Shown here piece after piece: positions 1 to 25,017 of a stretch of 26,900 nt of DNA. This DNA is from a virus. A program made the translations under genes and the position numbers. The stretch is taken from positions 1-26,900 of IMG/VR virus record IMGVR_UViG_3300000101_003737, one strand, 5' to 3'. The first letter of the stretch is position 1; each line of letters starts with the position of its first letter. The notes beneath the pieces are model-generated. The model had not been told where the DNA came from. It did no database searches and saw only the letters and a program-made list of their open reading frames with translations.

Positions 1-2
1 CT

Positions 3-131
3 TATAGTTGTAGCGATGAACCTCTAGGTACGCTTAAAGACGGTTTTACGCTGTTTAAGACACCATCTAAGTGTGTAACTGATACGTGTGTTAGTAGTGC
101 AGATAATAAAATACCAAAGGTACAACTATGA
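3..131 (+). CDS. C-terminal fragment of a probable radical SAM protein (5' end outside the window)
   Basis: Frame 3 is open from the first base of the window to a TGA at 129-131, giving about 42 residues. The other two forward frames stop within the first 30 bases. The tail holds CVTDTC followed by a D five residues after the second Cys and then IPK. This matches, at the same spacing, the tail of the radical SAM protein at 5874-6833 (CGTKVC-like CGKTVC, then D, then IRK). A Cys followed by a PLG/PIG motif also precedes it in both. I infer the end of a paralogous SPASM-like auxiliary-cluster region. The stop overlaps the next start by four bases (ATGA), so the genes are probably translationally coupled. 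The fragment is too short for certainty. Confidence 0.5.
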   Translation, partial: YSCSDEPLGTLKDGFTLFKTPSKCVTDTCVSSADNKIPKVQL

Positions 132-442
132 AGAAGTTATGGGAACGCTATAAGGCGCATGATAAAAAAGTAAAAGAAGCACAAGCAAACTTTAAAGTTT
201 CTGATATAAAGAACAAATACGTTAGAGCATTGATGTGGATTTTTATGCTTAAATTTGTATGGGATATTACTACATTATTTGAAAAGTATTTGCCTATGCC
301 AATAGTATATAAAATACTAGGATTAGGATGGACAAAGTTAGGCTATTATGTGTTTTGGTTATTATGGTTTATATTCTTAGTAGTAGTATTATACAATGTA
401 TTAGGTGAAGAAGCCTTTGATAAGTTAGTTAACGAATTATGA
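128..442 (+). CDS. Small membrane protein of unknown function
   Basis: This 104-residue protein has a charged, Lys-rich N-terminus (about residues 1-30). A first hydrophobic stretch follows at about 34-50 (ALMWIFMLKFVWDITTLF) and a second, longer one at about 72-93 with many Trp, Phe, Leu and Val. The end is acidic. It looks like an integral inner-membrane protein with one or two helices. There is no signal-peptidase site or recognisable domain. It overlaps both neighbours by four bases (ATGA at each end), so it belongs to the enzyme operon. A membrane anchor or holin-like role cannot be told from sequence, and nothing specifically supports a holin. Confidence 0.7.
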   Translation: MKKLWERYKAHDKKVKEAQANFKVSDIKNKYVRALMWIFMLKFVWDITTLFEKYLPMPIVYKILGLGWTKLGYYVFWLLWFIFLVVVLYNVLGEEAFDKLVNEL

Positions 443-1050
443 AAATAGATATTAAAGATATTAAGTTTTGGATGGACGCTATTCGCAACAGCGATGATAG
501 AAGCCGTACCTTAGAAAGTTTCTGGGGTGGACAACTAGAGTCTAAAACTTGGTTAGTTGAATCTTTAAGTGCAAAAGCTAAAACAATTAGTAATGCTAAT
601 GCTGTTATACATGGTGGTTGGAATGGTGTGTTAGCAAATATGCTATTCAATAGTGAGATTGGTATTAAACATATTATAAGTGTAGACCTTGATCCTGTTT
701 GTAAAAAAATTGCAAGTACAGTAAATAAACGACAAGAAATGGAAGGTATGTTTGAAGCAGTTACAGGAGATATGTGTAGTTACGAATATACAACTAGTCC
801 TTACTTTGTTATTAATACAAGTTGCGAACATATTACACCAGAACAATATATGCAATGGTTAAATAATATACCAAAGGGTACAAAGATAGTTTTACAATCT
901 AATAACTATTCTGAATTAGAAGAACATGTTAACTGTAGCGAAACGCTAGACGAGTTTGTAAAGAAATCAAAGTTAAATGTTGAAGTTGCAAAAGAATTAC
1001 AATTAACAAAGTATAAAAGATTTATGATCATAGGAACAAAAGATGTATAA
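439..1050 (+). CDS. Class I SAM-dependent methyltransferase-like protein
   Basis: The 203-residue protein shows a Rossmann-type methyltransferase pattern. A glycine-rich motif I follows a hydrophobic strand (AVIHGGWNGVLA, about residues 55-66). An acidic strand end follows (SVDLDP, D83), as expected for the ribose-binding residue of S-adenosylmethionine. A motif IV-like segment is seen at about 123-132 (FVINTSCEHIT). The HGGWNG loop is not the classical GxGxG, so the assignment is by pattern rather than exact signature. The methyl acceptor is unknown. The start overlaps the upstream stop (ATGA) and the gene runs 8 bases into the next one. The setting suggests it modifies a protein or product of this island, which is inference. 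Confidence 0.6.
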   Translation: MKIDIKDIKFWMDAIRNSDDRSRTLESFWGGQLESKTWLVESLSAKAKTISNANAVIHGGWNGVLANMLFNSEIGIKHIISVDLDPVCKKIASTVNKRQEMEGMFEAVTGDMCSYEYTTSPYFVINTSCEHITPEQYMQWLNNIPKGTKIVLQSNNYSELEEHVNCSETLDEFVKKSKLNVEVAKELQLTKYKRFMIIGTKDV

Positions 1051-2041
1051 TTACGAAGACGTAACAGCAATACATTTAGAAGTAACTTCGAAATGCCAAG
1101 CAAAATGTCCTATGTGTCCAAGACGGTTACATGGTGGGCCATTACTTGAAGGATTAGATCTTACAGAAATTAATTACCAAACGTTTACTGAATGGTTTCC
1201 TATAAGTTTTGTACAGCAATTAAAGTTTCTTAGTATGTGCGGAAACTTAGGCGATCCTATCATGGCCAAAGATACACTAGGTATAATGCAATATCTACGT
1301 AAGCATAATCCTTTTATGACTTTGCAAATGCACACTAACGGAAGTGCTAGAACAACAGATTGGTTTAAGGGTCTAGCAGATGTAGGAGTAAAAATTGTAT
1401 TTGGTATTGACGGATTAGGAGATACTCATTCATTATATAGAATTAGTACAAACTATGAGAAAATTTTAGAAAACGCACAAGCATTTATAGGTGCAGGTGG
1501 TGATGCACGTTGGGATATGTTAGTATTCAAACACAATGAACATCAAGTAGATGCATGTGAACAGTTAAGCAAAGACTTAGGCTTTAAAGGATTTAGCATT
1601 AAGCATACTACAAGATTTAAAGATGGTAAGTTTGATGTAATAGATGACAACTATAATGTTACACATACACTATTACCATCGCAAAAAAGTTTAGAAATGA
1701 TTGCACCAGCAGAAAAAGCTAGGAACGAAACATTACCAACTATTAATTGTAAAGCAGTTGAAGATAAGCAAATGTATATTAGTGCTAATGGAAATGTTAG
1801 TCCGTGCTGTTGGTTAGATTTAGAATGGTTACCACAACATGCCCATTCAAAAATAGATTATATGATAAAAATTAAAGAATTTCCTAACTTGCACACACAG
1901 TCATTGAAAGAAATATTTGATAGTAACTTCTTTAATAAAATTAGTAGTTGTTGGACTAGTACAGGATTAAAAGAATGTTCAAAACAATGTGGAAGTTTTG
2001 ATAAAATGAATGCACAATTTGAAAGGCATGAACATGCGTAA
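1043..2041 (+). CDS. Radical SAM enzyme with C-terminal SPASM-like domain
   Basis: The N-terminus carries the canonical CxxxCxxC motif that binds the radical SAM [4Fe-4S] cluster (C18, C22, C25 in SKCQAKCPMCPRR). Later Cys residues (C236, C255, C256, C303, C312, C316) sit where SPASM or twitch domains bind auxiliary clusters. The segment ISANGNVSPCCW is typical of that domain. SPASM enzymes commonly modify peptides or proteins, for example as anaerobic sulfatase-maturating enzymes and RiPP maturases; the substrate here is unknown. The 332-residue length is normal. The closest relative in the window is the minus-strand protein at 12448-13425, which shares the Asn-Cys/Lys-Cys motif, the PCC motif and the C-terminal Cys pair. 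It is followed by a second radical SAM gene that overlaps its end. Confidence 0.85.
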   Translation: MYNYEDVTAIHLEVTSKCQAKCPMCPRRLHGGPLLEGLDLTEINYQTFTEWFPISFVQQLKFLSMCGNLGDPIMAKDTLGIMQYLRKHNPFMTLQMHTNGSARTTDWFKGLADVGVKIVFGIDGLGDTHSLYRISTNYEKILENAQAFIGAGGDARWDMLVFKHNEHQVDACEQLSKDLGFKGFSIKHTTRFKDGKFDVIDDNYNVTHTLLPSQKSLEMIAPAEKARNETLPTINCKAVEDKQMYISANGNVSPCCWLDLEWLPQHAHSKIDYMIKIKEFPNLHTQSLKEIFDSNFFNKISSCWTSTGLKECSKQCGSFDKMNAQFERHEHA

Positions 2042-3335
2042 GACGTTTTGTCCTTTACCATGGATACACTTAGCAACACGCCCCAATGGTGACGTTAGAG
2101 TTTGTTGTACTGCTAATGCATCAGGTGCTGGACTTGAAGATGACAAAACAGTAGGCCTTGTTAAAAAGGACGGTATTGCTATGAACATGCGTGACCATAC
2201 TATTGAAGAAGTATGGAACAGTGAACATATGCGTAATACAAGATTGCAAATGCTAAATGACGAAGTACCTGCAAGTTGTCGTAAATGTTTTGCAGAAGAG
2301 GAAAAAGGTATTGTAAGTAAGCGCCAATGGGAAACTAAAGTGTGGGAAAAGCGTTTAGATATTGATAGCATTGTAGATCAAACAGATGCAGACGGTAACT
2401 TACCTGTTAACATTCCTTACTTTGATTTACGCCTTGGTAACTTGTGCCAATTAAAGTGTGTAATGTGTAGTCCACATGATTCAAGTAGTTGGATTAAAGA
2501 ATGGAAGCTACAAAAACCTAAATACAAAAACAAAGACTTAATTGCAGAACAAAGTTGGGATCAAGATTTTGATTATACTTGGTATAAGAAAGGATCATTT
2601 CTCGATTCTATGAAAGACCAGTCACAACACATTAAAGAATTATATTTTGCAGGCGGAGAACCTTTACTAATACCAGAGCATTATGCTATACTAGAGTTTA
2701 TGGTTGACAACGGCTTTAGTAAAAATATTTGTATACGTTATAACAGTAATGGATTAGAACTACCTGATAAACTATTTGCATTGTGGAAACACTTTCAAGA
2801 AGTAACATTTAACTTTAGTATTGATGCATACGGAGATAAGAATGATTATATACGCTATCCTAGTAAATGGCAAGACGTAAGTGCAAACTTACATAAATTA
2901 GATAACGCAGGATCTAATATTAGAGTTAATATGGCTTGTGCAGTACAGTTGTTAAATGTAGCATACATACACGAACTTGCTGAATGGAAAATAGAGCAAA
3001 AGTTTAATAATATTAATGTATTACCTTTTGGTGGCGGTCTTATTGGAACACACCTTGTATATTTTCCAAGTTATTTGAATGTACGAGTATTACCACAAGA
3101 GTATAAAGAATTTGCTAAGGATAATATTGAAAGATTTATTGATAGTCAAAAATTTAATACTGAGTGGAATCAACATGCAATGGGGAAACAGAGATTCAAA
3201 GGTATAGTAGAATATATGATGAGCGAAGATTGGTCTAATAAATTGCCTCAACTACAAGATTATTTAAGAGTATTAGACGAACGTCGTGGAACAGACTTTA
3301 GAAAAACATTTACAGAATTAGGAAAACATATATAA
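2034..3335 (+). CDS. Radical SAM enzyme with N-terminal SPASM/twitch-like Cys module
   Basis: The start is taken at ATG 2034 (MRKTFCPLPW), preceded by GAAAGG at seven bases and overlapping the upstream stop; in-frame ATGs at 2010 and 2028 lack this. The 433-residue protein begins with a Cys module (C6, C24-C25, C82, C85). That module resembles a SPASM/twitch domain placed before the barrel. The radical SAM motif follows at C138, C142 and C145 (NLCQLKCVMC), and the AGGEPLL segment matches the SAM-binding GGE motif. Paralogues with the same order lie at 7498-8619 and 11385-12458. It forms a two-gene cassette with the preceding SPASM enzyme. The stop and the next start share a base (TAATG). Confidence 0.85.
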   Translation: MRKTFCPLPWIHLATRPNGDVRVCCTANASGAGLEDDKTVGLVKKDGIAMNMRDHTIEEVWNSEHMRNTRLQMLNDEVPASCRKCFAEEEKGIVSKRQWETKVWEKRLDIDSIVDQTDADGNLPVNIPYFDLRLGNLCQLKCVMCSPHDSSSWIKEWKLQKPKYKNKDLIAEQSWDQDFDYTWYKKGSFLDSMKDQSQHIKELYFAGGEPLLIPEHYAILEFMVDNGFSKNICIRYNSNGLELPDKLFALWKHFQEVTFNFSIDAYGDKNDYIRYPSKWQDVSANLHKLDNAGSNIRVNMACAVQLLNVAYIHELAEWKIEQKFNNINVLPFGGGLIGTHLVYFPSYLNVRVLPQEYKEFAKDNIERFIDSQKFNTEWNQHAMGKQRFKGIVEYMMSEDWSNKLPQLQDYLRVLDERRGTDFRKTFTELGKHI

Positions 3336-3913
3336 TGGACGTAGGATATAAAGTTGTTTGCCATGATGTAGATCCTATAGAACTACATGAACAAACTGTT
3401 ATTGGTACAGAAGAAAAAAATGCAAATCTTATTGTGCGTTCTACTGCTAACGAACAGTTGTTATATATTGACGGAGCCACAGGCGGCAATGAACCTATTT
3501 TTCTTGGAATAACTAAATCAAGAGGAACACAGCAGAATAAGTTACCAGTCGAACCAGGAGATAACTTAGGTGGTGTTCAAATTTATGGAAGAACTAAGCC
3601 AGGCAGTAGTTTAGGGTATTGTCATGATGAAACACCGTTGAATGGTGCTATACAATTTTTTGTATCTAAAGATTATAATAAACAAGGTGCAGTTGCTAAT
3701 GAGATGGTTATAGCATTGTCTAATAATACAGACATGTCTATTAAATTAAAACTTGATAGTAATGGTAACTTAATTACACAAGGTAATATAACTAGTGGTA
3801 ATTTAAAAATAACAGACACAGTAGTTAACGAAGTAGGACCAATAGAGAAATATGTTCAAGTTGAATTAGATGGCAACAAATATGCTATGCCATTGTACAG
3901 GATATCAACATGA
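3335..3913 (+). CDS. Phage fibre-type domain protein inside the enzyme operon
   Basis: This 192-residue protein is not an enzyme by appearance. It has alternating short beta-type segments rich in Gly, Asn and Thr. The pattern SRGTQQNKLPVEPGDNLGG, then an Ala/Ile strand, then KLKLDSNGNLITQGNI resembles the C-terminal half of the fibre protein at 22680-24053 (TPTQGTAGDYLGAID, AFQID, MSIMSNGWVAI). I infer a shared tail-fibre or trimeric spike domain. It lacks the Mtd-like N-terminus of that protein, so it may be an accessory fibre subunit or a modular tip. It is coupled to its neighbours by TAATG upstream and ATGA downstream. It is thus co-translated with radical SAM and methyltransferase-like genes and is a candidate substrate. 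The function is otherwise unproven. Confidence 0.6.
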   Translation: MDVGYKVVCHDVDPIELHEQTVIGTEEKNANLIVRSTANEQLLYIDGATGGNEPIFLGITKSRGTQQNKLPVEPGDNLGGVQIYGRTKPGSSLGYCHDETPLNGAIQFFVSKDYNKQGAVANEMVIALSNNTDMSIKLKLDSNGNLITQGNITSGNLKITDTVVNEVGPIEKYVQVELDGNKYAMPLYRIST

Positions 3914-4599
3914 ACAAAATAACTTGGAAACATATTGACTATAACAACGACAGTCTTAATAGTATAGCAAGAAATATTGCTGAGTATCATACTGCTCATG
4001 CACTAAAAGTTAAGTATTCTACAACTAAAGGAGTACCGCTAGGAACTATCTTCTTAGATGACAAACATACAGTTGAAAATATCAGTGTGTTGAATAGTAT
4101 TTTAAATTATAATGTATATTTTAAAAAGAATACTGAAGTACCATTAAAAACAATAATTGATCCTGATTGTGTTGTTGCGTTAGCAAGTGGTGACACTCCA
4201 AGTCAGTTACTAGCCAAACATACATATGTTATTGACATTAGTCCAATGGCATTAGAAAAAACAAAAGAAAAATATAATATAGATGTAGCTAAGAGCTACA
4301 ATTACAACCAAGTTGATTTATTTGATATACCAGCTGTAAAAAAGTTTTTAACAAAATGCCAAGGTAATGTAGGATTATTTTGTTTAAGTAATGTATTTTT
4401 ATACTTTCCTAATTGCGTAATGTTTGATGCAAAGGCAAGACTTAAAAAACAAAACGAATTAATTAGTTTATTAGCACAAGATAAAATTAAATGGTATGTT
4501 GATATGATAACAGTCAACGGAACATATATTCAAACACTAGCAAGTGAATTAGTAGACATGACGTTAGACGATAAATTTAAGGTATTGCCATGGATCTAG
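3910..4599 (+). CDS. Probable SAM-dependent methyltransferase-like protein
   Basis: The 229-residue protein has a pattern suggestive of a Rossmann methyltransferase. A strand and loop VVALASGDTPSQ occur at about residues 88-99. Then TYVIDISPMALEKTKEKY follows, with D109 in the position expected of the acidic residue after strand beta2, and then LFCLSNVFLYFPN as a motif IV-like strand. The glycine loop is degenerate, so this is weaker than the call at 439-1050. The N-terminal 80 residues are not recognised. It overlaps both neighbours, by four bases upstream and ten bases downstream. Confidence 0.45.
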   Translation: MNKITWKHIDYNNDSLNSIARNIAEYHTAHALKVKYSTTKGVPLGTIFLDDKHTVENISVLNSILNYNVYFKKNTEVPLKTIIDPDCVVALASGDTPSQLLAKHTYVIDISPMALEKTKEKYNIDVAKSYNYNQVDLFDIPAVKKFLTKCQGNVGLFCLSNVFLYFPNCVMFDAKARLKKQNELISLLAQDKIKWYVDMITVNGTYIQTLASELVDMTLDDKFKVLPWI

Positions 4600-5234
4600 T
4601 AGAAAAATTTAACTGGATTAGACACAACAGCGGTCTTGCTACACTTCTGTTAGATATTCCAAAGCCTTCAAATGATATTAGAGATGAAATATTAAAAAGT
4701 GTTGACATTGCTGTTCCTCATAGAGATACTGATGGCAAAGGTTGGCGCAGTTTAACACTTCACGGACACAGTTCTATAATGACTGACAGTGATGATGCTT
4801 ACGAAGAAAAAGGATTCACATTAGGTACTAAAGAATGGACTGATATAGCAAAGCACTTTCCGTTAACTAAACAATGGATTATTAAGAATATACCTTTTGA
4901 AAAGTATGGAAGAATTAGAATAATGATAGTTGACCCAGGCGGGTATGTTAGTCCACACAAAGACTTTTTACATGGACAATTACTAGGCGGAATCAATATT
5001 GCTATTACACATCCTAAAGAAGTAGTGTTTAACATTGAAAATTATGGTAATGTAGAATGGCAAGAAGGTGAATCAAGACTAATTGATCTAGGAAGTATAC
5101 ACCAAATTACAAACAACAGTAGCAAATCTAGGATACATATAATTGTACACAGTGAACCAATTGATCAGTGGAATGAAACAATTATGCAATTAGTCTGCAA
5201 CAGTTACAACAAGGAATATGATGGAACAAAATAA
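4590..5234 (+). CDS. Fe(II)/2-oxoglutarate oxygenase, aspartyl/asparaginyl beta-hydroxylase type (group A)
   Basis: The protein has the 2OG-oxygenase double-stranded beta-helix signature. The metal ligands are HxD at H123/D125 (SPHKDF) and a distal H171 (GSIHQITNN). R181 sits about ten residues later, suited to binding 2-oxoglutarate. The order PGGYVSPHKD, then strands, then SRIHIIVH is that of the Asp/Asn beta-hydroxylase family, whose known members hydroxylate protein side chains. The N-terminal signature PHRDTDGKGWRSLTLHG is almost repeated in the protein at 13465-14166, so the two are paralogues. At 214 residues it is a catalytic domain only, with no membrane anchor or TPR. The acceptor is unknown. 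Its 3' end overlaps the next oxygenase gene by 17 bases. Confidence 0.8.
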   Translation: MDLVEKFNWIRHNSGLATLLLDIPKPSNDIRDEILKSVDIAVPHRDTDGKGWRSLTLHGHSSIMTDSDDAYEEKGFTLGTKEWTDIAKHFPLTKQWIIKNIPFEKYGRIRIMIVDPGGYVSPHKDFLHGQLLGGINIAITHPKEVVFNIENYGNVEWQEGESRLIDLGSIHQITNNSSKSRIHIIVHSEPIDQWNETIMQLVCNSYNKEYDGTK

Positions 5235-5877
5235 TATTGAAAGAGCATTACTATGGAATAGCCTGTGTAACATGGGAGACATGGTTAAACTAAAGTTAAA
5301 AGTTGACGGACACAACCTTGTACAAGAACTAGAGCAATTTAAAGATAACTGGTGTCCTTATAACCAAAAGAAAGATGCCCATAACAATCGTTGGGGCTTA
5401 CCTGTTACAAGTCACACAGGTGATGTAATGGACAACTATCATTTGAATAGCTTTGGTCACATGCAACGCTATCACGATGTTGAGATGAAAGAAGAAAACT
5501 TTACAACACCAACAGAAGTGTATAACAAAATTCCACAACTTGCTAGTTTAGTAGATACGTTTGCACCAGACCTTGGGCGTGTACATTTACTTAGAGTAGA
5601 TGAAGGTGGATTTTTTCCACCACACAGAGACTTTCCAGGTGTAGGACCAGAGTACTTTAGATTGTTATGTACATTTGGTAAAGCACAACCAGAAAACTAT
5701 GCACATATACTTGACAAGCAATTAATTTATCCTGATCCAGAGTATGTACATTTTATTAACTTCCAAAAAGAACATAGTGTATTCAGTTATACTAATGGAC
5801 TACATTCATTAATCCTTACAGTTAAACTAAATCAACGTACACACGATTTAATTATTAAGAATAGTATGAGCGAATGA
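5218..5877 (+). CDS. Fe(II)/2-oxoglutarate oxygenase-like protein (group C)
   Basis: The 219-residue protein carries VDEGGFFPPHRDFPG with an HxD pair at H136/D138, and a candidate distal His at H186 (KEHSVFSYTNG). Spacing and strand pattern match a 2OG oxygenase jelly roll. The Arg usually found about ten residues after the distal His is not evident. The equivalent stretch reads NGLHSLILTV, so 2-oxoglutarate binding may be altered. It is clearly more distant from the other six oxygenases in the window. AAGGA lies just upstream; ATG 5218 or 5221 could both start it. It overlaps the preceding oxygenase by 17 bases and the next radical SAM gene by four. Confidence 0.65.
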   Translation: MMEQNNIERALLWNSLCNMGDMVKLKLKVDGHNLVQELEQFKDNWCPYNQKKDAHNNRWGLPVTSHTGDVMDNYHLNSFGHMQRYHDVEMKEENFTTPTEVYNKIPQLASLVDTFAPDLGRVHLLRVDEGGFFPPHRDFPGVGPEYFRLLCTFGKAQPENYAHILDKQLIYPDPEYVHFINFQKEHSVFSYTNGLHSLILTVKLNQRTHDLIIKNSMSE

Positions 5878-6833
5878 AGCTAGATTATCAAGATAAAACA
5901 AAAGAAGATTGGTTCTTAGTTAGTTGGACATTAAGTAATAAATGTAATTACAAATGTTCTTACTGCCCAGACATATTACACAACGGAACTACAGGACAGC
6001 CCAAATGGGAAACTGTTAAAAACTTTGTTGAAAATTTTAAAGTACCTTCTAAAGAAATTTGTTACAGACTTAGTGGCGGAGAACCTACTTATTGGAAACA
6101 CTTTATTGATCTTGCAAAACTTGTTAAGGAACAAGGACACACATTTAGTTTTGTTACAAACGGTAGTCAATCAGTTGATTACTTTAAAAAAATAGATCCG
6201 TATACTGATGGTATGCTTATGAGTTATCATCCAGAGTATTCAAGTTCATCACACTTTGTAGAAATTGCAAATGCAACAAAGTGTGAAATTATTGTTAACC
6301 TAATGTTACCACCAGGTAAAGAAGCATTTGACGAACAGTATAAAATAGCACAATACTTGTTTGATAGAACAGATAGGATGTCAATATATCCTAAAGTTAT
6401 TTTAGATAAAACAGACGGAGAGCATATTACTAATACTGTGTCTCCTTATAGTAGTGAACAAAAAGAAATTATTGGTGCTTGGCCGTTTGCAAGACAAGTT
6501 AATGATGAGAACTTACACCGAGGTGATCTTAAACTTGACGAACAACCTGTAACAGCAAACGATTTAATTATATCAGGAATGAATAATTTTGCTGGTTGGA
6601 AATGCTGGGCAGGTATTGACGGAGTAAATGTTGATATGTGGGGAAACCTATATAGAGCAGATTGTCAGTTTGGAGGACCAATAGGAAATATGGAACGATA
6701 TAGATTACCAACTGAACCTATTACATGCGGAAAAACTGTGTGCGGATGTTTGAGTGATATATACATACGGAAGGACCGTGGAGATGGACGAAGCAGAACT
6801 GAAAGAAGCATACCGACTGTTTTGGCTAGTTAA
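5874..6833 (+). CDS. Radical SAM enzyme, third subfamily
   Basis: The CxxxCxxC motif lies at C24, C28 and C31 (NKCNYKCSYC), and RLSGGEPTY at about residues 65-73 matches the SAM-binding GGE segment. C-terminal Cys at 244, 264, 285, 290 and 292 suggest an auxiliary iron-sulfur cluster. The tail is similar to the partial protein at 3-131. The last 20 residues are Arg-rich and extend beyond the end of that relative. They overlap the small gene at 6784-6972 by 50 bases, which could reflect a recent change of stop codon. At 319 residues it is a compact radical SAM protein; a QueE-like role is not indicated by context. The product is unknown. Confidence 0.8.
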   Translation: MKLDYQDKTKEDWFLVSWTLSNKCNYKCSYCPDILHNGTTGQPKWETVKNFVENFKVPSKEICYRLSGGEPTYWKHFIDLAKLVKEQGHTFSFVTNGSQSVDYFKKIDPYTDGMLMSYHPEYSSSSHFVEIANATKCEIIVNLMLPPGKEAFDEQYKIAQYLFDRTDRMSIYPKVILDKTDGEHITNTVSPYSSEQKEIIGAWPFARQVNDENLHRGDLKLDEQPVTANDLIISGMNNFAGWKCWAGIDGVNVDMWGNLYRADCQFGGPIGNMERYRLPTEPITCGKTVCGCLSDIYIRKDRGDGRSRTERSIPTVLAS

Positions 6834-6972
6834 AGGACATATGAATTGTAGTGACGAAACAGCATTAAGTTCGGCTGATGGTTATTTTAAAAGATTATGG
6901 AACAATAACGAAAGATCAGAATATGGAATGGAAGGTTTTGAAGAGGCTTATTCAAAGAAAAAATTAATATGA
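6784..6972 (+). CDS. Small acidic/helical protein of unknown function
   Basis: This is a 62-residue ORF. I take the start at ATG 6784 (MDEAELKEAYRLFW), preceded by GGAAGG and GTGGAG, rather than the upstream ATG at 6754 buried in the radical SAM gene. It is rich in Glu, Lys and Tyr, predicted helical, with one Cys. It has no leader/core architecture that would mark it as a RiPP precursor, though its size and position directly after a radical SAM gene make that worth excluding. Its stop overlaps the next start by four bases (ATGA), which supports it as a real coupled gene. Confidence 0.55.
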   Translation: MDEAELKEAYRLFWLVKGHMNCSDETALSSADGYFKRLWNNNERSEYGMEGFEEAYSKKKLI

Positions 6973-13425: not shown

Positions 13426-13434
13426 AAGTATATT
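13406..13434 (+). promoter_or_regulatory. Candidate sigma70-like promoter for the rightward block
   Basis: TTGGCT at 13406-13411 and TATATT at 13429-13434 are separated by 17 bases, a reasonable -35/-10 pair. It would start transcription near 13441, about 24 bases before the ATG at 13465. The gap between the divergent starts (13426-13464) is only 39 bases. The -35 box therefore lies inside the leftward gene, and promoters for both directions must overlap here. I could not resolve a convincing leftward promoter. Weak consensus match only. Confidence 0.35.
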
Positions 13435-13464
13435 TAACAGATAGTTTAATGACAAAGTAGAAAT

Positions 13465-14166: not shown

Positions 14167-14167
14167 C

Positions 14168-16284: not shown

Positions 16285-16693
16285 TAAAAAAGACTTTGTA
16301 TCTAAAATGCAAAGCGATGATATTACAGATGTAACAGTTGAAGATACTAACGATTATTATATTTGTATTGATTCAACAGGCGGTCCTAACTCAGAGCCTT
16401 ACTTTGAACAGTTTCATCCTAATGTATTAAACTTATGTTTTGATGATGTTGCAGAAGATAGTACAAATTGGGGCGAAGATATAAAAGCATACTATACAGC
16501 AGTTGCACCAACACTAACACAAATTCAACATATTTCAAATTTCCTTAAAGATGCTTGTGGAACAATACATGTACATTGCATGAAAGGCGAGTCACGTAGT
16601 AAAGCCGTTGCAGATTATGTAAATAATACGAGAAATACGCACGACGGAAAGTATGCATATACAATTATAAGGGATACACTAGATGAACTTTGA
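16265..16693 (+). CDS. Tyrosine/dual-specificity protein phosphatase-like protein
   Basis: The start is taken at ATG 16265 (MIAVSYSKKD), nine bases after an AAGG site. An upstream in-frame ATG at 16145 would bury 120 bases in the oxygenase gene. The 142-residue product contains HCMKGESRS (H104, C105, R111). This is the HCx5R(S/T) cysteine-phosphatase signature, with the nucleophilic Cys and phosphate-binding Arg intact. CFDDVAEDS at about residues 58-66 could supply the general acid Asp. The size fits a minimal dual-specificity phosphatase. The substrate is unknown. The kinase-fold protein at 10943-11398 is its possible counterpart. It overlaps the next oxygenase gene by 11 bases. Confidence 0.75.
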   Translation: MIAVSYSKKDFVSKMQSDDITDVTVEDTNDYYICIDSTGGPNSEPYFEQFHPNVLNLCFDDVAEDSTNWGEDIKAYYTAVAPTLTQIQHISNFLKDACGTIHVHCMKGESRSKAVADYVNNTRNTHDGKYAYTIIRDTLDEL

Positions 16694-17234
16694 TGTAAAA
16701 GAAATACCAGTTAAAATAGATTATAGTGATACTAGAAGTTACCTTATAGGATTAGAAAAAAACTTTGCACATTTAAAGTTTACTAATGTAGCTGATACTG
16801 TTGATAGTGAAAAGCATAAAACTGATGGAGTATATGGTTGGGGTATACAAAGTAATTTAGACGACTTAACAATACCATGTCCACCTTGGAATGTACATAA
16901 AGAGCGTAGCGACAATTATAGAGATACTGAACTAGTATACGGTATAATTAATAACCTTAAAAAACAATTCCCACAAGCAAGACAGTTTAGTATTAGTGGA
17001 CATCCACCTGGAACTGAAATAGCACAACATACAGATACTGACAGATATCTTAAAGTACATATTCCTATATTAAGTAATCCTGATGCATGTTTTGTATTTG
17101 GTGATAAAACATATTCGCTACCCGTAGGAAAAGCATATCTAATAAATACTACACGCCCACACGGAACTATTAATAACGGAAAAACTGATAGAGTACATTT
17201 ATTTTTTAAAGTGCCATCGGAACATTATATATGA
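16683..17234 (+). CDS. Fe(II)/2-oxoglutarate oxygenase, aspartyl/asparaginyl beta-hydroxylase type (group B)
   Basis: At 183 residues this is the shortest of the group B oxygenases. HPPGTEIAQHTD gives H116/D118, then LKVHIPILSN. GDKTYSLPVGKAYLINTT is followed by PHGTINNGKTDR with H160 and R170. All expected catalytic residues are present. The N-terminal region is short and contains YGWGI, recalling the GWSVSW of the next gene. The stop overlaps the following start by four bases, so three genes in a row (phosphatase, this oxygenase, next oxygenase) are tightly coupled. The acceptor residue and protein are unknown. Confidence 0.85.
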   Translation: MNFDVKEIPVKIDYSDTRSYLIGLEKNFAHLKFTNVADTVDSEKHKTDGVYGWGIQSNLDDLTIPCPPWNVHKERSDNYRDTELVYGIINNLKKQFPQARQFSISGHPPGTEIAQHTDTDRYLKVHIPILSNPDACFVFGDKTYSLPVGKAYLINTTRPHGTINNGKTDRVHLFFKVPSEHYI

Positions 17235-17959
17235 GATTATTAAAACCTAAAGATATAACAGACGTCAATGCATTATTTGATAGCCTCGAATGGGATATTA
17301 TTGAATTAGATTTTAGCATTGATAAAGATAACTTAGAATTCTATTATACACAATTAAAAACACGATTACAAAATTTATGTTTTAGTTTTAATTCTAAAGA
17401 ATATCTACGTCCTGAAATATATGATAGATTTCAAAAAGAAAATGCAGTTGGAAATTATCAAGGAAATGTACAAGGTTGGAGTGTTAGTTGGCCAATAGAA
17501 CGAGATATTCCGTGTCCAAGTAAATCACAAGCTAACGTTGATATGTATCCCGAATTACAAAATTTAGATGAAGAAAAGTTCTACTACGATTGCGTACCAC
17601 AGCAAGTTTATAAATTTGGTATCCTAAATAAAATGTTAGAAACATTATCTTTGCAATCATTAAGACAGATGTTAATAGCATTACACCCTAGTGGGCTTAA
17701 AGTTAATACACATACTGATGGAAAAACTAGAAAACTACATGTTCCATTTCATACTAATACTGATGCTGTTTTTACTTTTGGTGAAAACAGAGAACGAACA
17801 TATCACATGGAATTGGGCAAAGGGTATATAATTAATACCCTAGTTCCGCATGGTACAGAAAATAACGGAAGTACAGAGCGAGTACACTTATTGTCCAGAG
17901 TTGATGACGATTTTATGCAATCGCTTTTATTAATAAACTGCAATATAGCAGATAAATAA
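17231..17959 (+). CDS. Fe(II)/2-oxoglutarate oxygenase, aspartyl/asparaginyl beta-hydroxylase type (group B)
   Basis: The 242-residue protein has LHPSGLKVNTHTD (H161/D163), LHVPFHTN, an insertion around GENRERTYHM, then KGYIINTLVPHGTENNG with H207, and R217 in TERVHL. It is a direct neighbour and close paralogue of the oxygenase at 16683-17234 (VPHGTENNG against RPHGTINNG), suggesting tandem duplication. The N-terminal 140 residues are longer and different. The last codons overlap a late-promoter-like box that precedes the propeller gene. Confidence 0.85.
   Translation: MRLLKPKDITDVNALFDSLEWDIIELDFSIDKDNLEFYYTQLKTRLQNLCFSFNSKEYLRPEIYDRFQKENAVGNYQGNVQGWSVSWPIERDIPCPSKSQANVDMYPELQNLDEEKFYYDCVPQQVYKFGILNKMLETLSLQSLRQMLIALHPSGLKVNTHTDGKTRKLHVPFHTNTDAVFTFGENRERTYHMELGKGYIINTLVPHGTENNGSTERVHLLSRVDDDFMQSLLLINCNIADK
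17951..17958 (+). promoter_or_regulatory. T4 late-promoter-like box (GATAAATA) before a propeller gene
   Basis: GATAAATA differs by one base from the T4 late consensus TATAAATA. It lies 19-26 bases before the ATG at 17978, followed by a strong AGGAGAT ribosome-binding site. It overlaps the stop codon of the preceding oxygenase gene. In this AT-rich sequence such an octamer can occur by chance; its position before a gene with one of the few true gaps in the block supports it. Confidence 0.4.
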
Positions 17960-17977
17960 CAGTAACAGGAGATAACA

Positions 17978-19222
17978 ATGAGCAACACTTATTTTACACA
18001 GGTATTAGATGAACCATACCACTTAGGAAATGGCGAATTTTTGTCAGTAATCACTAACGGAAAAGCACGTCACGAAGGCGAAGAAACAAGAGATTTTAAC
18101 AAAGATGCAGGCGCAAGAGCAGGATTGCTCAGAGTAAATGCTGATAGTACTACATTTGTAGACTTTTTTGATAAAAGTGATAACGGTGACAGATACCGAG
18201 GTATTGCAGTTGTAGGTAATACAGCATATGTAATGCGTACACAAAAAGACAAAGTAGACAGTATTATTAGAGTAGCGGCTGTAAACTTAGATAATAACGA
18301 AGTTACAATGATTGAAGAAAAGGGTGTAACAGTACACGGCTCAGAAACTCCTAAAACATTCTGTGGACACTTTAACTTTGGTCGACCAATTACAGTTGGT
18401 ACTAAGATTATTTACCCACCAATTATGAGTGGAATGATTATTGTGTTTGATACTGTTGCTAATACATTTACTGTACACGAAACAGAAGAGAAGTTTGCTT
18501 CTATTCATAGTGTGTATGTAAAAGAATTAAATGAAGTTGTGTTTTTCCCATATGGTAAAACAACTAATAAGTTGTTAACATTAGATATGGAAACAGCTAA
18601 AATTACTGCACATGAGGCTCCAACTAACGGTGCTTTTTATCATGTTAATACAAACGGAAGTAAAGCAGTTGGTGCTCCATTAATTATGGATCAAACTACA
18701 GAGTTTAACTTCTGGGTATACGATGGTGATACTGTTAAGTCGGTTGCTTATGATTCGTCTAGTACAGATGACATGGGCGGACAGATGGGTTTCAAATACG
18801 GAACTATGAATGGTAACACACTATTAACACATACTTGTTGGGAAGGCTGTAAAGAGTTTGTATCATTAAACTTAGATACACTTGCTATTGATAGCTTTGA
18901 AACTAATGAGTCACTAGGTAGTAAGCCAGTTATTAATGCTGGAGACGTTTACTTGTTTCCATCAATACAAAATCCAAGCATGGTAAATCCAACAACTAAA
19001 GTTTTTAAAGTTGAAGGCAATGCAATTAATGAAGTTATGGACTTAGGTACTGCAAACATTACTTCAGGATCAATTAACGATACTGATAGTGTTACAATGT
19101 TAGCACCTTACAAGTTTGATCTTAGTGATGCCGGCTTAGCTGGCGATATGTCTATTGTAGATCTTAATGCTAAAACATCAAAACTTGTTCCTGTTAATAT
19201 AAGTTTGGAAGATTATAACTAA
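17978..19222 (+). CDS. Beta-propeller-like repeat protein, possible virion or abundant protein
   Basis: The 414-residue protein has propeller-like repeats: IIYPPIMSGMIIVFDT, VVFFPYGKTTNKLLTLDMET, and DVYLFPSIQNP with TKVFKVEG. They share the PYG turn and FDT/LDMET strand ends with the proteins at 8616-9743 and 9736-10962. The repeats are more diverged, with many Asp, Asn, Thr and Gly residues. There is no signal peptide or enzyme motif. It has the strongest Shine-Dalgarno sequence of the block (AGGAGAT, about six bases before ATG), an 18-base gap upstream and a late-promoter-like box. High late expression is therefore inferred. It is a candidate structural protein or substrate of the flanking oxygenases. 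Confidence 0.65.
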   Translation: MSNTYFTQVLDEPYHLGNGEFLSVITNGKARHEGEETRDFNKDAGARAGLLRVNADSTTFVDFFDKSDNGDRYRGIAVVGNTAYVMRTQKDKVDSIIRVAAVNLDNNEVTMIEEKGVTVHGSETPKTFCGHFNFGRPITVGTKIIYPPIMSGMIIVFDTVANTFTVHETEEKFASIHSVYVKELNEVVFFPYGKTTNKLLTLDMETAKITAHEAPTNGAFYHVNTNGSKAVGAPLIMDQTTEFNFWVYDGDTVKSVAYDSSSTDDMGGQMGFKYGTMNGNTLLTHTCWEGCKEFVSLNLDTLAIDSFETNESLGSKPVINAGDVYLFPSIQNPSMVNPTTKVFKVEGNAINEVMDLGTANITSGSINDTDSVTMLAPYKFDLSDAGLAGDMSIVDLNAKTSKLVPVNISLEDYN

Positions 19223-19944
19223 TGGGGTTGGGGCCAGTAGATACTCGGCTCGTATTACCTTGCCAAGATCCAGAAGGCAATAAATTTGAAAGCTATCACG
19301 AATATTTAGATCACGCTAAAAAAAATTCTGTTGATAAAATACACTTTAAGAACGGACGAGGACAAGAAAGTTTTGCTCCTACGTTTAATGATATAAGCGA
19401 AATATATCCAGTACACGATCTAGGGTTTAAAATGCACAACTGGTTTCCAGTTGATTTAGAACGAGCTAGAGAATGGTGGCACGAATTCCATAAGCAAAAT
19501 GCAGATACTGAATTCTTTTATCAAGGTAAGCCTAACGAACCAAACTCTTGGGGTTGCGTTTACGGTGATGGCGCTTCTATATATCATTTAAAAGATGAGC
19601 AATTAACTGGTTACTTGTTAGAGATACACAATGCACTAATTGATCTTGGCTTAGATAAAGAAGCATTTGAGTGGGTAGTAGTAAACCATACTCCTGGAAC
19701 AAGACTAGGAATGCATGTTGATGAACAACAATGGTTAACAGTACACATACCTTTGTATACAAATGACAAGTGCGACTGGACAATCGGCGGCGAACAATTT
19801 TTTATGCCACTTGGTAACTGTTATATAATTAATAGTACAGAACCGCATGATGTTGTAAACTATGGTGATACTGATAGAATACATATTTACTTTAGTATAA
19901 ATGCAAGTCAAGTAGACAAAGTTAAATTAAAGCCAAAGATATGA
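19222..19944 (+). CDS. Fe(II)/2-oxoglutarate oxygenase, aspartyl/asparaginyl beta-hydroxylase type (group B)
   Basis: The 240-residue protein has NHTPGTRLGMHVD (H165/D167), LTVHIPLYTN, GGEQFFMPLGNCYIINST, PHDVVNYGDTDR with H209 and R219, then IHIYF. All catalytic positions are present. The N-terminal 150 residues include a Trp-rich stretch (REWWHEFHK) and are not shared with the other copies. The start ATG shares a base with the propeller stop (TAATG), so it is translated right after the propeller protein. It overlaps the thioredoxin-like gene by four bases. Confidence 0.85.
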   Translation: MGLGPVDTRLVLPCQDPEGNKFESYHEYLDHAKKNSVDKIHFKNGRGQESFAPTFNDISEIYPVHDLGFKMHNWFPVDLERAREWWHEFHKQNADTEFFYQGKPNEPNSWGCVYGDGASIYHLKDEQLTGYLLEIHNALIDLGLDKEAFEWVVVNHTPGTRLGMHVDEQQWLTVHIPLYTNDKCDWTIGGEQFFMPLGNCYIINSTEPHDVVNYGDTDRIHIYFSINASQVDKVKLKPKI

Positions 19945-20270
19945 TAGTACCTACGCCCTTAGAAATTACAGACACAAATCTAGACACACTAGGTCAGATA
20001 CAAGGAAGAACTATTGTGTATTGGTATGCTAAATGGAACGGTCCTCACAAAATAGTAAGTCCTTATGTGGACGTACTCTGTCGCAAACTACATGACACAC
20101 TAACTGTGGCAAGAGTTGAAGCTGATAAGAATCCTGGTGCGTGGAACAAGTACAGCGTACATGGAGTACCTTGTGTGCAGGTGTTAGAAGACGGTAACTT
20201 AGTAGCTACTATGTATGGTAATATGACACAACAACAACTGGAAAAATTTGCACAAGCAGAGCACAAATAA
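19941..20270 (+). CDS. Thioredoxin-fold protein lacking the CxxC motif
   Basis: The 109-residue protein follows the thioredoxin pattern: strand IVYWYAKW, active-site loop WNGPHK (residues 32-37) where thioredoxin has WCGPCK, helix to about residue 52, strand VARVEADKNPG, cis-Pro loop HGVPCVQV (P77), and ending MYGNMTQQQLEKF. Both redox Cys are replaced (N33 and H36). The remaining Cys are C47 and C78, the latter directly after the cis-Pro. It cannot act as a normal disulfide reductase. A binding, scaffold or single-Cys role is possible. T4-like phages do use thioredoxin-fold proteins, but with CxxC. It is followed directly by the halogenase gene. Confidence 0.8.
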   Translation: MIVPTPLEITDTNLDTLGQIQGRTIVYWYAKWNGPHKIVSPYVDVLCRKLHDTLTVARVEADKNPGAWNKYSVHGVPCVQVLEDGNLVATMYGNMTQQQLEKFAQAEHK

Positions 20271-21458
20271 ATGAAAAATATTATTATTGTAGGTGGTGGA
20301 AGTGCAGGCTGGATGACCGCCGCATATCTTGCGACAAAAACTGATCACGCAGTTACAGTAATAGAAAGTCCTAATATTCCTATTGTTGGAGTAGGGGAAA
20401 GTACTATTCCTAGTATTTCAACTTTTTTAGATGAAATTGGTGTTACTGAACAAGATTTATTTGAAGGATGCGGAGCAGTTCGTAAATATACAATTCAACA
20501 CAATAACTGGAATGGTGAAAACGAATCATGGTATCACCATTTTTGTTTTGATGAAACAGAACACGACGAACAGTTAAAATGGATGAAGGATTATATTAAG
20601 CCTGATAAAGAATGGCGTTGGGCATACCACTTAGATGCAACTCGATTAGGTAATGTTATCCGTGACAAGTCTGCTATTCCTAACGGTGTTAAACATATAA
20701 GCGATACAGTTGTATCTGTTGACACTGATGATAACGGTATTACAGGTATAAAATGCGAAAACGGATATTATACAGCAGATCTATATATTGATTGTACAGG
20801 ATTTAAAAGTTTACTTAGAGGTAAACTAGGTGTTGAATATAAAAAACATAAAGCATTAATCAATGATTATGCAGTATGTGGACCAGGAGCATATTTAGAA
20901 GGCGAACAACCATTACCATATACACAAACTTTTAGTATGGACTACGGTTGGCGTTGGCGTGTAAGCATACAAGAACGCACAGGTAACGGATATGCATTTA
21001 ACTCTAAGATGATTAATGTTGAAGATGCTAAAAAAGAATTTATTGCAAAAACACCTGGGATCAAAGAAGATAAAGTTTTTGTAGTTCCTATTAAAAATGG
21101 TTATAATCCAGAACCTTGGAAAAAGAATGTAATAAGTTTAGGACTAAGTTGCGGATTTTTAGAACCTCTTGAAGCAACAGGTTTGTTTTTAGTACATGGG
21201 CCTGTAATGATGTTAGAAAAACTTTTAGATGATCCTAAAGGAAGCAAAAAGTTTAATCGAGTATGGACTGCACTATACGAACACTTAGCAGACTTCTTAT
21301 CAATGCATTATAAGACTAGCAAATTAGAACATACAGAGTACTGGAAAAGTTTTGATAAAGTTAACAATGTTAAGTTGCCTGCAACAAAACAAGTGTTATT
21401 TTGCAAATATAGTTTTAGAACTTTAGCGAATGCTCGCGAACTTCCGTATACTTCTTAA
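20271..21458 (+). CDS. Flavin-dependent (tryptophan-halogenase-like) halogenase
   Basis: The 395-residue protein has the FAD-binding GGGSAGW at residues 8-14, GVGEST at 40-45 and DCTGF at 174-178. LSCGFLEPLEATGLFLV at about 292-308 is the EPLE(S/A)TG segment of tryptophan halogenases. Lys72 aligns with the catalytic Lys (PrnA K79 position) when the following NNW is matched to the family's VNW. The WxWxIP motif is present in altered form as WRWRVS (227-232). It is about 120-140 residues shorter than PrnA-type enzymes at the C-terminus. A flavin reductase partner is not seen nearby. Marine phage halogenases are known (cyanophage VirX1). The substrate here could be a free small molecule or a protein side chain. 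It converges with the GNAT gene, overlapping by 44 bases. Confidence 0.85.
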   Translation: MKNIIIVGGGSAGWMTAAYLATKTDHAVTVIESPNIPIVGVGESTIPSISTFLDEIGVTEQDLFEGCGAVRKYTIQHNNWNGENESWYHHFCFDETEHDEQLKWMKDYIKPDKEWRWAYHLDATRLGNVIRDKSAIPNGVKHISDTVVSVDTDDNGITGIKCENGYYTADLYIDCTGFKSLLRGKLGVEYKKHKALINDYAVCGPGAYLEGEQPLPYTQTFSMDYGWRWRVSIQERTGNGYAFNSKMINVEDAKKEFIAKTPGIKEDKVFVVPIKNGYNPEPWKKNVISLGLSCGFLEPLEATGLFLVHGPVMMLEKLLDDPKGSKKFNRVWTALYEHLADFLSMHYKTSKLEHTEYWKSFDKVNNVKLPATKQVLFCKYSFRTLANARELPYTS

Positions 21459-21972
21459 CATCAATACGCCACAAATTCTGTGGAACATTATACAACATTA
21501 TCTCTTTTTCAAGAGTCCATATACCACGTTTCGCTAATAGTGGCATCATAATATCGTTCATGCGTTTACTTTTGCCACCATCGTCATTTATATTAGTACT
21601 AATGTAAAGTTCAGCTTTAGGGTTTTGTTCTAACGCCCATTTAATTTGTAGATTTAATAACTGGCTTAATTGTATTCCTGTTTTAAAAATATCTCTACCT
21701 GTGCCTAGTGTATACCCGGGAAGTTGAGCGCCACGGAATAAACAACGGTAAGCATTTTCACTTACTTCGGGTAAAGGGTGTATACCTGCAATGCTAATAA
21801 TTTTACTATAATAGTCGTGTCCGCCATCTTCGATAGCAACTGTCCAAGCACCGGTATCTAAACACCATTGCCATTTCATTTTTTCTAAAGATGTATTGTT
21901 ACTAAAATCTTGACTGTTGCAAAACTTTAATACTTTATCTTTATCGTTTGCTGTAGCAAATTTAAATTCCAT
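21415..21972 (-). CDS. GNAT-family N-acetyltransferase-like protein
   Basis: The 185-residue protein starts MEFKFATANDKDKVLKFC, a typical GNAT first strand and helix. Central strands follow with a beta-bulge-like region at GAWTVAIEDG and SKIISIAGIHPLP, then GYTLGTGRDIFKTGIQ, where the GxG-type acyl-CoA loop would be. ELYISTNINDDGGKSKRMNDIMMPLL and a C-terminal strand resemble motif B of the family. The CoA-binding loop is not the exact Q/RxxGxG/A. It overlaps the ANL gene upstream by 11 bases, suggesting paired function: activation then acyl transfer. Its end overlaps the halogenase gene on the other strand. Confidence 0.6.
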   Translation of the reverse strand: MEFKFATANDKDKVLKFCNSQDFSNNTSLEKMKWQWCLDTGAWTVAIEDGGHDYYSKIISIAGIHPLPEVSENAYRCLFRGAQLPGYTLGTGRDIFKTGIQLSQLLNLQIKWALEQNPKAELYISTNINDDGGKSKRMNDIMMPLLAKRGIWTLEKEIMLYNVPQNLWRIDVKKYTEVREHSLKF

Positions 21973-22636
21973 TCTTCCAAGTACGTCCTTTTGCTTCTTT
22001 TAATCTTCCATGGAACTCTTTCGTGTCCATGTTAAAAACATCGCCGGTTGACTTGCCGTTAATAATACAATGTTGTAAGTTATATCCGCCGGACGCTTGT
22101 AACGGCATAAACATAACATGGTTTTCTTTTTGGTCAATAGTGTTTAAATCAAAACTAGGTGAGTCGTAACCAATCATTACAGGTGGAGCATACTCTGTCA
22201 TACCATACCAATTAGCAACTGTCTGTACTCCACGCTCTTTAAATGCATCAATAAAAGATTGCTCAACTTTACCACTGCCAGTAGCTAGATAACGTACACA
22301 ACTCATGTCTAAGTTTTTAAAGCCTTTTGTCTTTTGTAGTAATTCTAAATGGCGTGGAATTAACGCTATATACGTCGGTTTAACGTTACTAAACAGTTCG
22401 GGGTAGGTAAGTGCATTAAAGTTGCTACTAACTAGCTGTGCGCCGCTTATATAAGCAGGATGAGCTGTTATAGTGTAGTGTGCTATAGTGTTTGCAGGAA
22501 AGACATCTAATACAATGTCGTCTTTAGTTAGTCCAATTTCTCGTACTGAACGTTCTGCACAACGGTTAATATATTCCCAAGAATGTTTAACAACCTTAGG
22601 TTGGTCTGTACTACCAGATGTGAATAGAGTAAGCAT
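21962..22636 (-). CDS. Minimal ANL-type (AMP-binding) adenylation domain
   Basis: The 224-residue protein opens with LTLFTSGSTDQPKVVKHS, the A3 phosphate-binding loop (T6 to K14). NWYGMTEYAPP (YGxTE, A5, residues 143-147) follows, then STGDVF (A7) and FHGRLKEAKGRTWKNG (A8-like, about 207-222). The order is right, but the roughly 150 residues before A3 and the C-terminal subdomain of a normal 500-residue enzyme are missing. An in-frame stop lies ten codons upstream of the ATG, so it is not simply mis-started. The fold would be a core without its mobile lid. It may adenylate a carboxylate, or may need a partner. It overlaps the GNAT gene. Confidence 0.75.
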   Translation of the reverse strand: MLTLFTSGSTDQPKVVKHSWEYINRCAERSVREIGLTKDDIVLDVFPANTIAHYTITAHPAYISGAQLVSSNFNALTYPELFSNVKPTYIALIPRHLELLQKTKGFKNLDMSCVRYLATGSGKVEQSFIDAFKERGVQTVANWYGMTEYAPPVMIGYDSPSFDLNTIDQKENHVMFMPLQASGGYNLQHCIINGKSTGDVFNMDTKEFHGRLKEAKGRTWKNGI

Positions 22637-25006: not shown

Positions 25007-25017
25007 TATATTTCTCC

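Follow-up and report, generated by a model that had tools for sequence, protein, structure and literature searches.

In the sections of PMC7029224 available to us, pelagimyophages and cyanomyophages carry a host recognition cluster (HRC) that brings together fibers, glycosyltransferases, and radical SAM cassettes. TARA_ERS488813_N000010, from an uncultured marine virus of T4-like type, has 12 radical SAM genes, which the available part of PMC5332604 reads as Fe-S metabolism. Oxygenases, halogenases, and radical SAM genes of such variable regions have been read as 2-oxoglutarate/nitrogen control (excerpt of PMC3037559), and another published reading, antibiotic protection, was presented as speculative (excerpt of PMC2984593). 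Fiber-side islands with radical SAM cassettes are already published, and the type of region is known. As for enzymes acting on a protein of their own operon, the radical SAM enzyme QhpD and the flavoprotein QhpG act on quinohemoprotein amine dehydrogenase (excerpt of PMC7876137). Here, we describe an island of radical SAM, oxygenase, halogenase, and propeller genes in the IMG/VR viral contig IMGVR_UViG_3300000101_003737 (36.7 kb). The window, i.e., the whole stretch of DNA analyzed, comprises bases 1 to 26,900 of this contig, and the island occupies its left 22.6 kb. Comparison with relatives divided the island into a set of genes kept or lost together with two propeller proteins, PropA and PropB, and a core set that occurs with or without them.

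Two gene sets among relatives of the island

The core set (radical SAM genes, the oxygenase OG3, the GT-A-like g19, and a kinase-like gene) was found both with and without propellers. In the window it consists of the following genes.

439-1050, plus strand: g02, methyltransferase-like (Methyltransf_25, E 0.093, below cut-off)
1043-2041, plus strand: g03, radical SAM/SPASM protein (SPASM 34.7 bits, PF04055 29.6 bits)
2010-3335, plus strand: g04, N-twitch radical SAM protein (NF033640, 422 bits)
5874-6833, plus strand: g09, radical SAM protein (PF04055, 39.5 bits)
7498-8619, minus strand: g12, N-twitch radical SAM protein, absent in some lineages (NF033640, 222 bits)
10943-11410, minus strand: g15, small kinase-like protein (OspG, 18.4 bits, E 0.0023, below the cut-off of 27)
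11385-12458, minus strand: g16, N-twitch radical SAM protein (NF033640, 228 bits)
12448-13476, minus strand: g17, radical SAM/SPASM protein, absent in some lineages (PF04055 41.3 bits, SPASM 26.5 bits)
13465-14166, plus strand: OG3 (g18), oxygenase, retained where propellers are absent (PF05118, 48.8 bits)
14168-15637, plus strand: g19, GT-A-like protein, absent from the first-pass list (predicted model; predicted local distance difference test score [pLDDT], 71.6)

The propeller set was kept or lost as a unit. It comprises propA and propB, OG2, OG4, OG5, nearly always OG6, a partial ANL gene, and mostly a halogenase.

5218-5877, plus strand: OG2 (g08), oxygenase-like (HXD motif, no Pfam match)
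8616-9743, minus strand: propA, propeller protein (hhalign to PropB, probability 98.5, E 2e-15)
9736-10980, minus strand: propB, beta-propeller (predicted model, pLDDT 86.9)
15637-16284, plus strand: OG4 (g20), oxygenase (PF05118, 53 bits)
16683-17234, plus strand: OG5 (g22), oxygenase (PF05118, 49.2 bits)
17231-17959, plus strand: OG6 (g23), oxygenase (PF05118, 30.6 bits)
20271-21458, plus strand: g27, short flavin-dependent halogenase (PF04820, 307 bits)
21962-22636, minus strand: g29, partial ANL adenylating domain (PF00501, 70 bits, profile positions 168 to 331 of 384)

Viral contigs were scanned with profiles, and the best 80 relatives were retained per scan (of 92 for g19, of 122 for OG3, and of at least 574 for g04), so that the samples lean to close relatives. 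With g19 as the anchor, 56 of the 80 loci had enough flanking sequence and fell into 34 dereplicated clusters. The OG3 anchor yielded 59 loci in 33 clusters, and the g04 anchor yielded 36 loci, which were not dereplicated; the three samples have many contigs in common. Five further propeller-less loci (L089, L143, L145, L158, and L162) were not counted, as their contigs end closely upstream of or within g19.

With the g19 anchor, propA and propB were both present in 29 of 34 clusters and both absent from the other 5. OG4, OG5, and the partial ANL gene occurred in all 29 propeller clusters and in none of the others, OG6 in 28 of 29 versus 0 of 5, and a halogenase match in 23 of 29 versus 0 of 5. 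OG2 was found in 26 of the 29; it was unseen in L095, L104, and L107, whose contigs end before its place, and a further contig of the L095 cluster (G004) carries it past the flank used. Matches to OG2 of 29 to 31% in the propeller-less clusters L119 and L157 belong to a different gene at a different place. The five propeller-less clusters were also without the phosphatase-like gene g21, and all five retained g04, g09, g12, g15, g16, g17, OG3, and g19. The other anchors gave the same division: OG4 and OG5 in 26/26 propeller clusters and 0/7 others with OG3 (the ANL gene was unseen in one of the 26, L191, which has a short flank), and OG2 and the propellers together in 20 loci, neither in 16, and mixed in 0 of 36 with g04. 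The propeller set occupies three separate places with core genes between them. In the propeller-less type it is missing from all three, i.e., between g04 and g09, between g12 and g15, and after g19. In gene trees, the propeller-less type lay among the others, separated by one state change (OG3 and g12) or two (g19, g04, and g15); since the pattern thus amounts to one or two tree events, the cluster counts are not independent.

Seven of the 29 propeller clusters contained a third propeller-like gene, propC. In all seven, OG6 was 47 to 96% identical to that of the window; in all 22 propeller clusters without propC, it was 40% identical at most, or unseen. Lineages H and F pair as sisters in the oxygenase tree, on its OG3 branch as well as on its OG4 branch; H has propC and OG5 and OG6 of the window type, and F has neither.

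The first-pass annotation had proposed that the enzymes of the island modify propeller and fiber proteins of the phage after translation. Its observation was largely right, and the interpretation is supported in part and sharpened. The proposed tie between enzymes and propellers stands for OG2, OG4, OG5, and the ANL gene, and mostly for OG6 and the halogenase. For the radical SAM enzymes it does not stand: these genes, OG3, and the kinase-like gene persist in propeller-less phages, and radical SAM and OG3 relatives lie on bacterial contigs with no propeller in any of 59 loci, which, for that half of the proposal, comes close to what the first pass had itself named as refuting.

These 59 loci came from a genome scan with g04, and 29 of them bear names of Bdellovibrio or Bacteriovorax type (31 with Oligoflexia). 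OG3-like genes were present in seven, g19-like genes in three, and both in L336, L338, and L360. In these three Bdellovibrionota-type contigs (L336, 1-17251), arrays of N-twitch radical SAM genes stand beside the OG3-like and g19-like genes. In the phylum to which one Bdellovibrionia metagenome-assembled genome (MAG) belongs, 41 of 144 genomes had the N-twitch family above cut-off, many with at least 10 matches. A host of the phage among these bacteria is a possible lead. The 917-kb contig that carries L336 belongs to a 4.5-Mb MAG, whose ribosomal protein S7 gene is on another contig. We take the L336 contig to be chromosomal because of its size. On that reading, some of the core genes are cellular, and phage fibers are impossible as their substrate there.

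Proteins encoded in the island

PropB is a beta-propeller by its confidently predicted fold. Among the 50 matches listed, solved propellers aligned to the model with Z scores of 20.9 to 23.2 over 302 to 350 residues at 3.0 to 3.9 Å. The first pass had counted three propeller-like proteins; PropA joins PropB by homology, and PropC is weakly linked (hhalign to PropA/PropB, probability 32%, 84 columns; short matches to the PropA profile). None of the three had a homologue in the "phages" sequence set, and PropB had no PDB sequence match. Two peptide patterns, the only ones scanned, gave no confirmed PropB in genome_contigs, and PropB was found in 0 of the 144 genomes of one phylum, in a scan whose empty answer shows nothing.

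Six of the seven 2-oxoglutarate oxygenases reported in the first pass passed the PF05118 cut-off of 22.6 bits (Asp/Asn beta-hydroxylase type; 30.6 to 53 bits); the seventh, OG2, is carried by its motif. HXD was present in 7 of 7, and a distal His with RxH in 6 of 7. Among relatives, OG4 also occurs with a fused PTP-like domain (G004; L082, 2658-3731).

The halogenase has the nucleotide-binding motif GXGXXG (GGGSAG at residue 8). It reads WRWRVS in place of WXWXIP, the motif of flavin-dependent tryptophan halogenases. Alignments to the 30 PDB chains of at least 497 amino acids (aa) end at residue 359 to 383 of its 395, with 78 to 129 residues of the chains remaining. Canonical halogenation of free tryptophan was rejected as a function, the protein being too short and the WXWXIP motif altered. 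That it stops short of the C-terminal region present in the tryptophan enzymes fits a larger substrate. Longer relatives (505 to 538 aa, 28 to 30% identity) replace the short form in G008 (49137-50654; L080), G011 (23167-24696; L077), and L321 (5619-7235).

Across the whole contig, six radical SAM genes were above the Pfam cut-off, all with the cluster motif CX3CX2C, and g04, g12, and g16 (read at 2028-3332, 7501-8619, and 11388-12458) exceeded the curated NF033640 cut-off of 170 bits. A seventh, cut by the contig start, matches the C terminus of an intact gene (157272-158231) of G001, a relative of 267.8 kb. The first-pass count of six complete genes and one partial gene was thus confirmed. 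A viperin-like defense role for g09 was rejected (46 bits for 5874-6830 versus the NF038283 cut-off of 180). As listed, g17 (TTG start) and OG3 are divergent, and their starts overlap by 12 bases (window 12448-14166); a downstream ATG in g17, if used, would free space for a divergent promoter.

The g19 model is of moderate quality. Its structure matches reached a Z score of 9.4 at best and for the most part had a GT-A or a nucleotidyltransferase fold; lysyl hydroxylase LH3 and COLGALT1 (Z about 8.5 to 9.2) and a PBCV-1 capsid glycosyltransferase were among them. An OG3-like domain with a long N-terminal part resembling g19 by eye (L323) was not used, as the g19 profile gives no match to it. 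Neither g19, OG3, nor g05 had a match in the "phages" sequence set.

Among the smaller calls of the first pass, the motifs of the kinase-fold/phosphatase pair are present (HXD(X4)N and DWD in g15, HCX5R in g21), with both family scores below cut-off. In the ANL/GNAT pair, the ANL domain held up as a partial one, and the GNAT gene had no Pfam match. The two methyltransferase-like labels drew little or no family support, with one score below cut-off (g02) and no match for g06. A precursor gene for a ribosomally synthesized and post-translationally modified peptide (RiPP) was not seen: the genes are as tightly coupled as the first pass had noted, with no gap of more than 43 bases, and the lone short open reading frame (ORF; 72 aa) is conserved and has one Cys. 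A RiPP cluster was rejected for want of a precursor gap, though a precursor may lie within another frame. The remaining features of the island are as follows.

3-131, plus strand: 3' end of a radical SAM gene truncated by the contig start (end of a reading frame; match to the C terminus of G001 157272-158231)
3335-3913, plus strand: g05, labeled fiber-like in the first pass, optional cassette (no family match)
3910-4599, plus strand: g06, labeled methyltransferase-like in the first pass, optional cassette (no family match)
4590-5234, plus strand: OG1 (g07), oxygenase, optional cassette (PF05118, 44.1 bits)
6969-7517: SDR-like gene, absent from the first-pass list (below cut-off)
16265-16693, plus strand: g21, PTP/DSP-like phosphatase, not in every lineage (DSPc, 17.6 bits, below the cut-off of 33.5)
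17978-19222, plus strand: propC, propeller-like, optional, accompanying one OG6 type (weak link to PropA)
19222-19944, plus strand: OG7 (g25), oxygenase, optional (PF05118, 40.3 bits)
19941-20270, plus strand: thioredoxin, absent from the first-pass list (PF00085, 52.1 bits)
21415-21972, minus strand: g28, labeled GNAT in the first pass (no family match)
22680-24053, minus strand: tail fiber with Mtd N-terminal domain, island border (PF18454, 41.6 bits)

Genomic setting, gene exchange, and selection

The island is real and extends beyond the stretch first noted: in G001, radical SAM genes carry on upstream of the point that matches the start of the window contig. Its source is an uncultured jumbo-myophage lineage, and the window is the fiber-side variable region of that lineage. 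Records of relatives include ones of 268 (G001), 186, and 126 kb. The order in G001 runs from gp5-, gp25-, and gp6-like baseplate genes through a 4,937-codon ORF and fiber genes to glycosyltransferase-like genes (by eye), more radical SAM genes, a UDP-glucose dehydrogenase-like gene, the island, and the Mtd_N fiber. The region from 119.0 to 181.9 kb of G001 is a variable island with fiber and nonstructural genes adjoining the baseplate module, as in a T4-type host recognition cluster. When the whole record was scanned, all six PF05118 matches and every match to the PropA profile fell inside 162.7 to 177.9 kb. By eye, the genes that follow the island on its right encode a VWA-domain protein and a MoxR-like ATPase (the latter 51% identical to those of PA5oct-type jumbo phages), and beyond them come exonuclease-, QueE-, and FolE-like genes. 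The 4,937 codons in the tail region form a single ORF (L070/L071; G001, 124570-139383).

The fiber context proposed in the first pass was thus borne out by the position of the G001 island between baseplate/fiber genes and the Mtd_N fiber. The clear fiber protein is this one, which starts just past the end given for the island in the first pass (22636); the inner fiber-like gene g05 is the one without a family match. A linkage between fiber-like and enzyme genes was also supported, in that the fiber-like g05 and an oxygenase gene travel together in one cassette (3335-5234; g05, g06, and OG1). Against lineage D, this cassette was nearly identical (synonymous divergence [dS], 0.04 to 0.08), compared with dS values of 1.01 for g04, 0.40 for OG2, and 1.06 for g09 around it; judging by these distances, the cassette was exchanged recently. 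The halogenase was exchanged alone (dS 0.05, versus 0.24 for propC and 0.99 for the ANL gene). Turnover among relatives involved gain or loss of g03, g11, g12, g17, g24, g25, the halogenase, and cassettes.

A comparable relative was available for 30 of 31 genes. The ratio of nonsynonymous to synonymous divergence (dN/dS) among these was 0.02 to 0.35, with g06 (0.43) and g05 (0) as exceptions in comparisons with dS 0.04, indicating purifying selection across the island. Values were 0.08 to 0.16 for propB, 0.09 to 0.24 for propA, 0.10 to 0.15 for propC, and 0.23 to 0.35 for the Mtd_N fiber. The idea that the propellers are fast-evolving adhesins was therefore rejected, their ratios being like those of the enzymes and under that of the fiber; as to the first-pass proposal, propellers that serve as rapidly changing adsorption proteins are not favored. 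Their slow evolution speaks against a diversifying adhesin and leaves scaffold or substrate as candidate roles.

Relatives' islands contained, by eye, genes for a full-length ANL ligase and for desaturase-like, asparagine-synthase-like, and B12-binding radical SAM proteins (L075 to L078; G011, 20541-21902, 24693-25316, and 28269-29354; G010, 40045-42006). The distant islands L281, L302, L312, and L321 have g04 and no propellers. L302, L321, and L281 are propeller-less islands of like theme, with N-twitch radical SAM, oxygenase-like, and SDR- or SGNH-like genes recognized by eye.

Candidate functions and described systems

The gene content suggests that parts of the phage surface, or the host surface, may be chemically finished by phage enzymes. 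Tentatively, we prefer the reading that fiber-region proteins are tailored in the infected cell. The propeller-set oxygenases and halogenase would work on the propellers, or by means of them, with the core set active beside them. The substrates would be proteins, either the propellers themselves or fiber-region proteins held by the propellers. Side chains would be hydroxylated or halogenated, and possibly glycosylated, in the cytoplasm ahead of assembly. The analysis establishes gene content, order, co-occurrence, purifying selection, and the predicted propeller fold of PropB, from which catalysis, protein substrates, and a destination in the virion are an inference. In favor of the reading are the position between the baseplate/fiber genes and the Mtd_N fiber, the joint presence or absence of the propeller set at three places, the tie between propC and one OG6 type, the PTP-OG4 fusion, the recently exchanged g05-g06-OG1 cassette, the shortened halogenase, the intact motifs, and the low dN/dS values.

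Several observations weigh against this reading. Six propeller clusters have no halogenase match, and the cluster counts rest on one or two tree events. Without any propeller, L302 and L321 encode weakly matching relatives of OG3 and g19, and L321 also encodes a halogenase relative of 538 aa; oxygenases and halogenases in general are thus not bound to propellers. For g19, Foldseek gave a best E value of 2.6e-3, with no match at 0.001 or better, and no DxD motif was seen by eye, so that the label "glycosyltransferase" is a lead. GT2-like genes lie near some of the bacterial N-twitch loci (by eye), which fits work on glycans. PF05118 also holds hydroxylases of nonprotein substrates, e.g., LpxO, the lipid A hydroxylase. 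The same region of G001 contains a match to nucleotide-sugar dehydrogenases (PF00984, E 5e-18; PHROG UDP-glucose dehydrogenase), and other relatives have NDP-sugar epimerase-, glycosyltransferase-, and aminotransferase-like genes (by eye).

The last of these points belong to a serious alternative, only somewhat less probable than the preferred reading, namely, remodeling of the host envelope (lipopolysaccharide [LPS], capsule, or another surface glycan) during infection, e.g., against superinfection. Here, the oxygenases, radical SAM enzymes, and g19 would act on lipids or sugars, and the propellers would be binding or scaffold parts. Modification of the host surface had been named as an alternative in the first pass, and it is kept alive by the dehydrogenase match (UDP-glucose/GDP-mannose type) and the sugar-related genes of relatives. 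LpxO, the frequency of N-twitch genes in one bacterial phylum, and the GT2-like genes near some of them point the same way. Surface alteration by glycosyltransferases of such regions has been proposed for pelagimyophages (available part of PMC7029224). However, no gene of the window passes the cut-off for a sugar-nucleotide, transport, or lipid A family, and the three glycosyltransferase-like genes seen by eye in G001 have no Pfam match. In addition, a halogenase is untypical for work on LPS.

It is improbable that unrelated accessory genes with no common job have simply gathered here, in a recombination-prone region. The high turnover and the separate exchange of the halogenase would fit such a pool, but every propeller cluster has the same fixed set, three separated blocks disappear together, purifying selection acts throughout, and the PTP-like domain is fused to OG4. 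Least probable is the making or decoration of a small molecule (peptide or siderophore-like) via ANL activation, radical SAM chemistry, and halogenation, which the partial ANL gene, halogenase, and six radical SAM genes in one island and the full-length ANL ligase and asparagine-synthase-like gene of some relatives would fit, but which lacks a precursor-peptide gap and any carrier-protein or transporter family match among the island proteins searched, and whose ANL protein covers part of the domain only.

A more far-reaching form of the preferred reading, tailoring of fiber-region proteins, is unlikely to hold in all its parts. It would make the island a protein-maturation machine of jumbo phages, in which the propeller pair serves as substrate or scaffold for a reduced halogenase and the four hydroxylases linked to it. 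A radical SAM/oxygenase/GT-A-like module, part of which Bdellovibrio-like bacteria also have, would join them in rewriting the chemistry of the phage's fiber-tip proteins. In the literature searched, with most subscription journals outside its coverage, we found no description of the linked propeller set and no precedent for virion modification of this kind. The split gives a testable assignment, as one enzyme set comes and goes with two propeller proteins and another is independent of them. Should virion proteins be modified by these enzymes, post-translational chemistry would be a route to altered host recognition without sequence change, and N-twitch radical SAM enzymes, whose function is not named in the records used, would gain a defined context.

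Among described systems, the island resembles the HRC, which, in the available part of PMC7029224, is likewise large and variable, lies in the structural region, and contains tail fibers, glycosyltransferases, and radical SAM cassettes. The same text names major-tropism-determinant domains and an aspartyl/asparaginyl beta-hydroxylase in these phages. The island differs in that the nearest relatives of the gp6-like baseplate protein of G001 are the jumbo phages Phosso, Atu_ph07, and SCTP-2 (35 to 38% identity), and that part of the text does not mention, for the HRC, a conserved pair of propellers to which oxygenases are linked. In the Pelagibacter phage HTVC008M, four consecutive 2-oxoglutarate-Fe(II) oxygenase genes adjoin baseplate genes, and a tryptophan halogenase gene has an oxygenase gene as its neighbor; propellers and radical SAM genes are not annotated in that stretch, and its halogenase is 32% identical and of the longer form. 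TARA_ERS488813_N000010 resembles the island, going by its published description as far as available, as a T4-like uncultured genome rich in radical SAM genes. The halogenase of the window shares PF04820 with tryptophan halogenases and matches VirX1 (6qgm, from a phage) and PrnA, RebH, and PyrH-type chains; at 395 aa compared with 497 to 554 aa, it is without their C-terminal part and about 50 middle residues in the alignments listed. The adjoining OG3 and g19 recall, by analogy, the glycosylation of collagen hydroxylysine by LH3 and COLGALT1, from which they differ in that g19 has no shown sequence homology to these enzymes, a moderate model, and no DxD motif by eye. QhpD and QhpG belong to other enzyme families and have a small substrate protein, and, as far as the available part of PMC7876137 describes them, they offer a precedent by analogy of working for enzymes that act on a protein encoded beside them.

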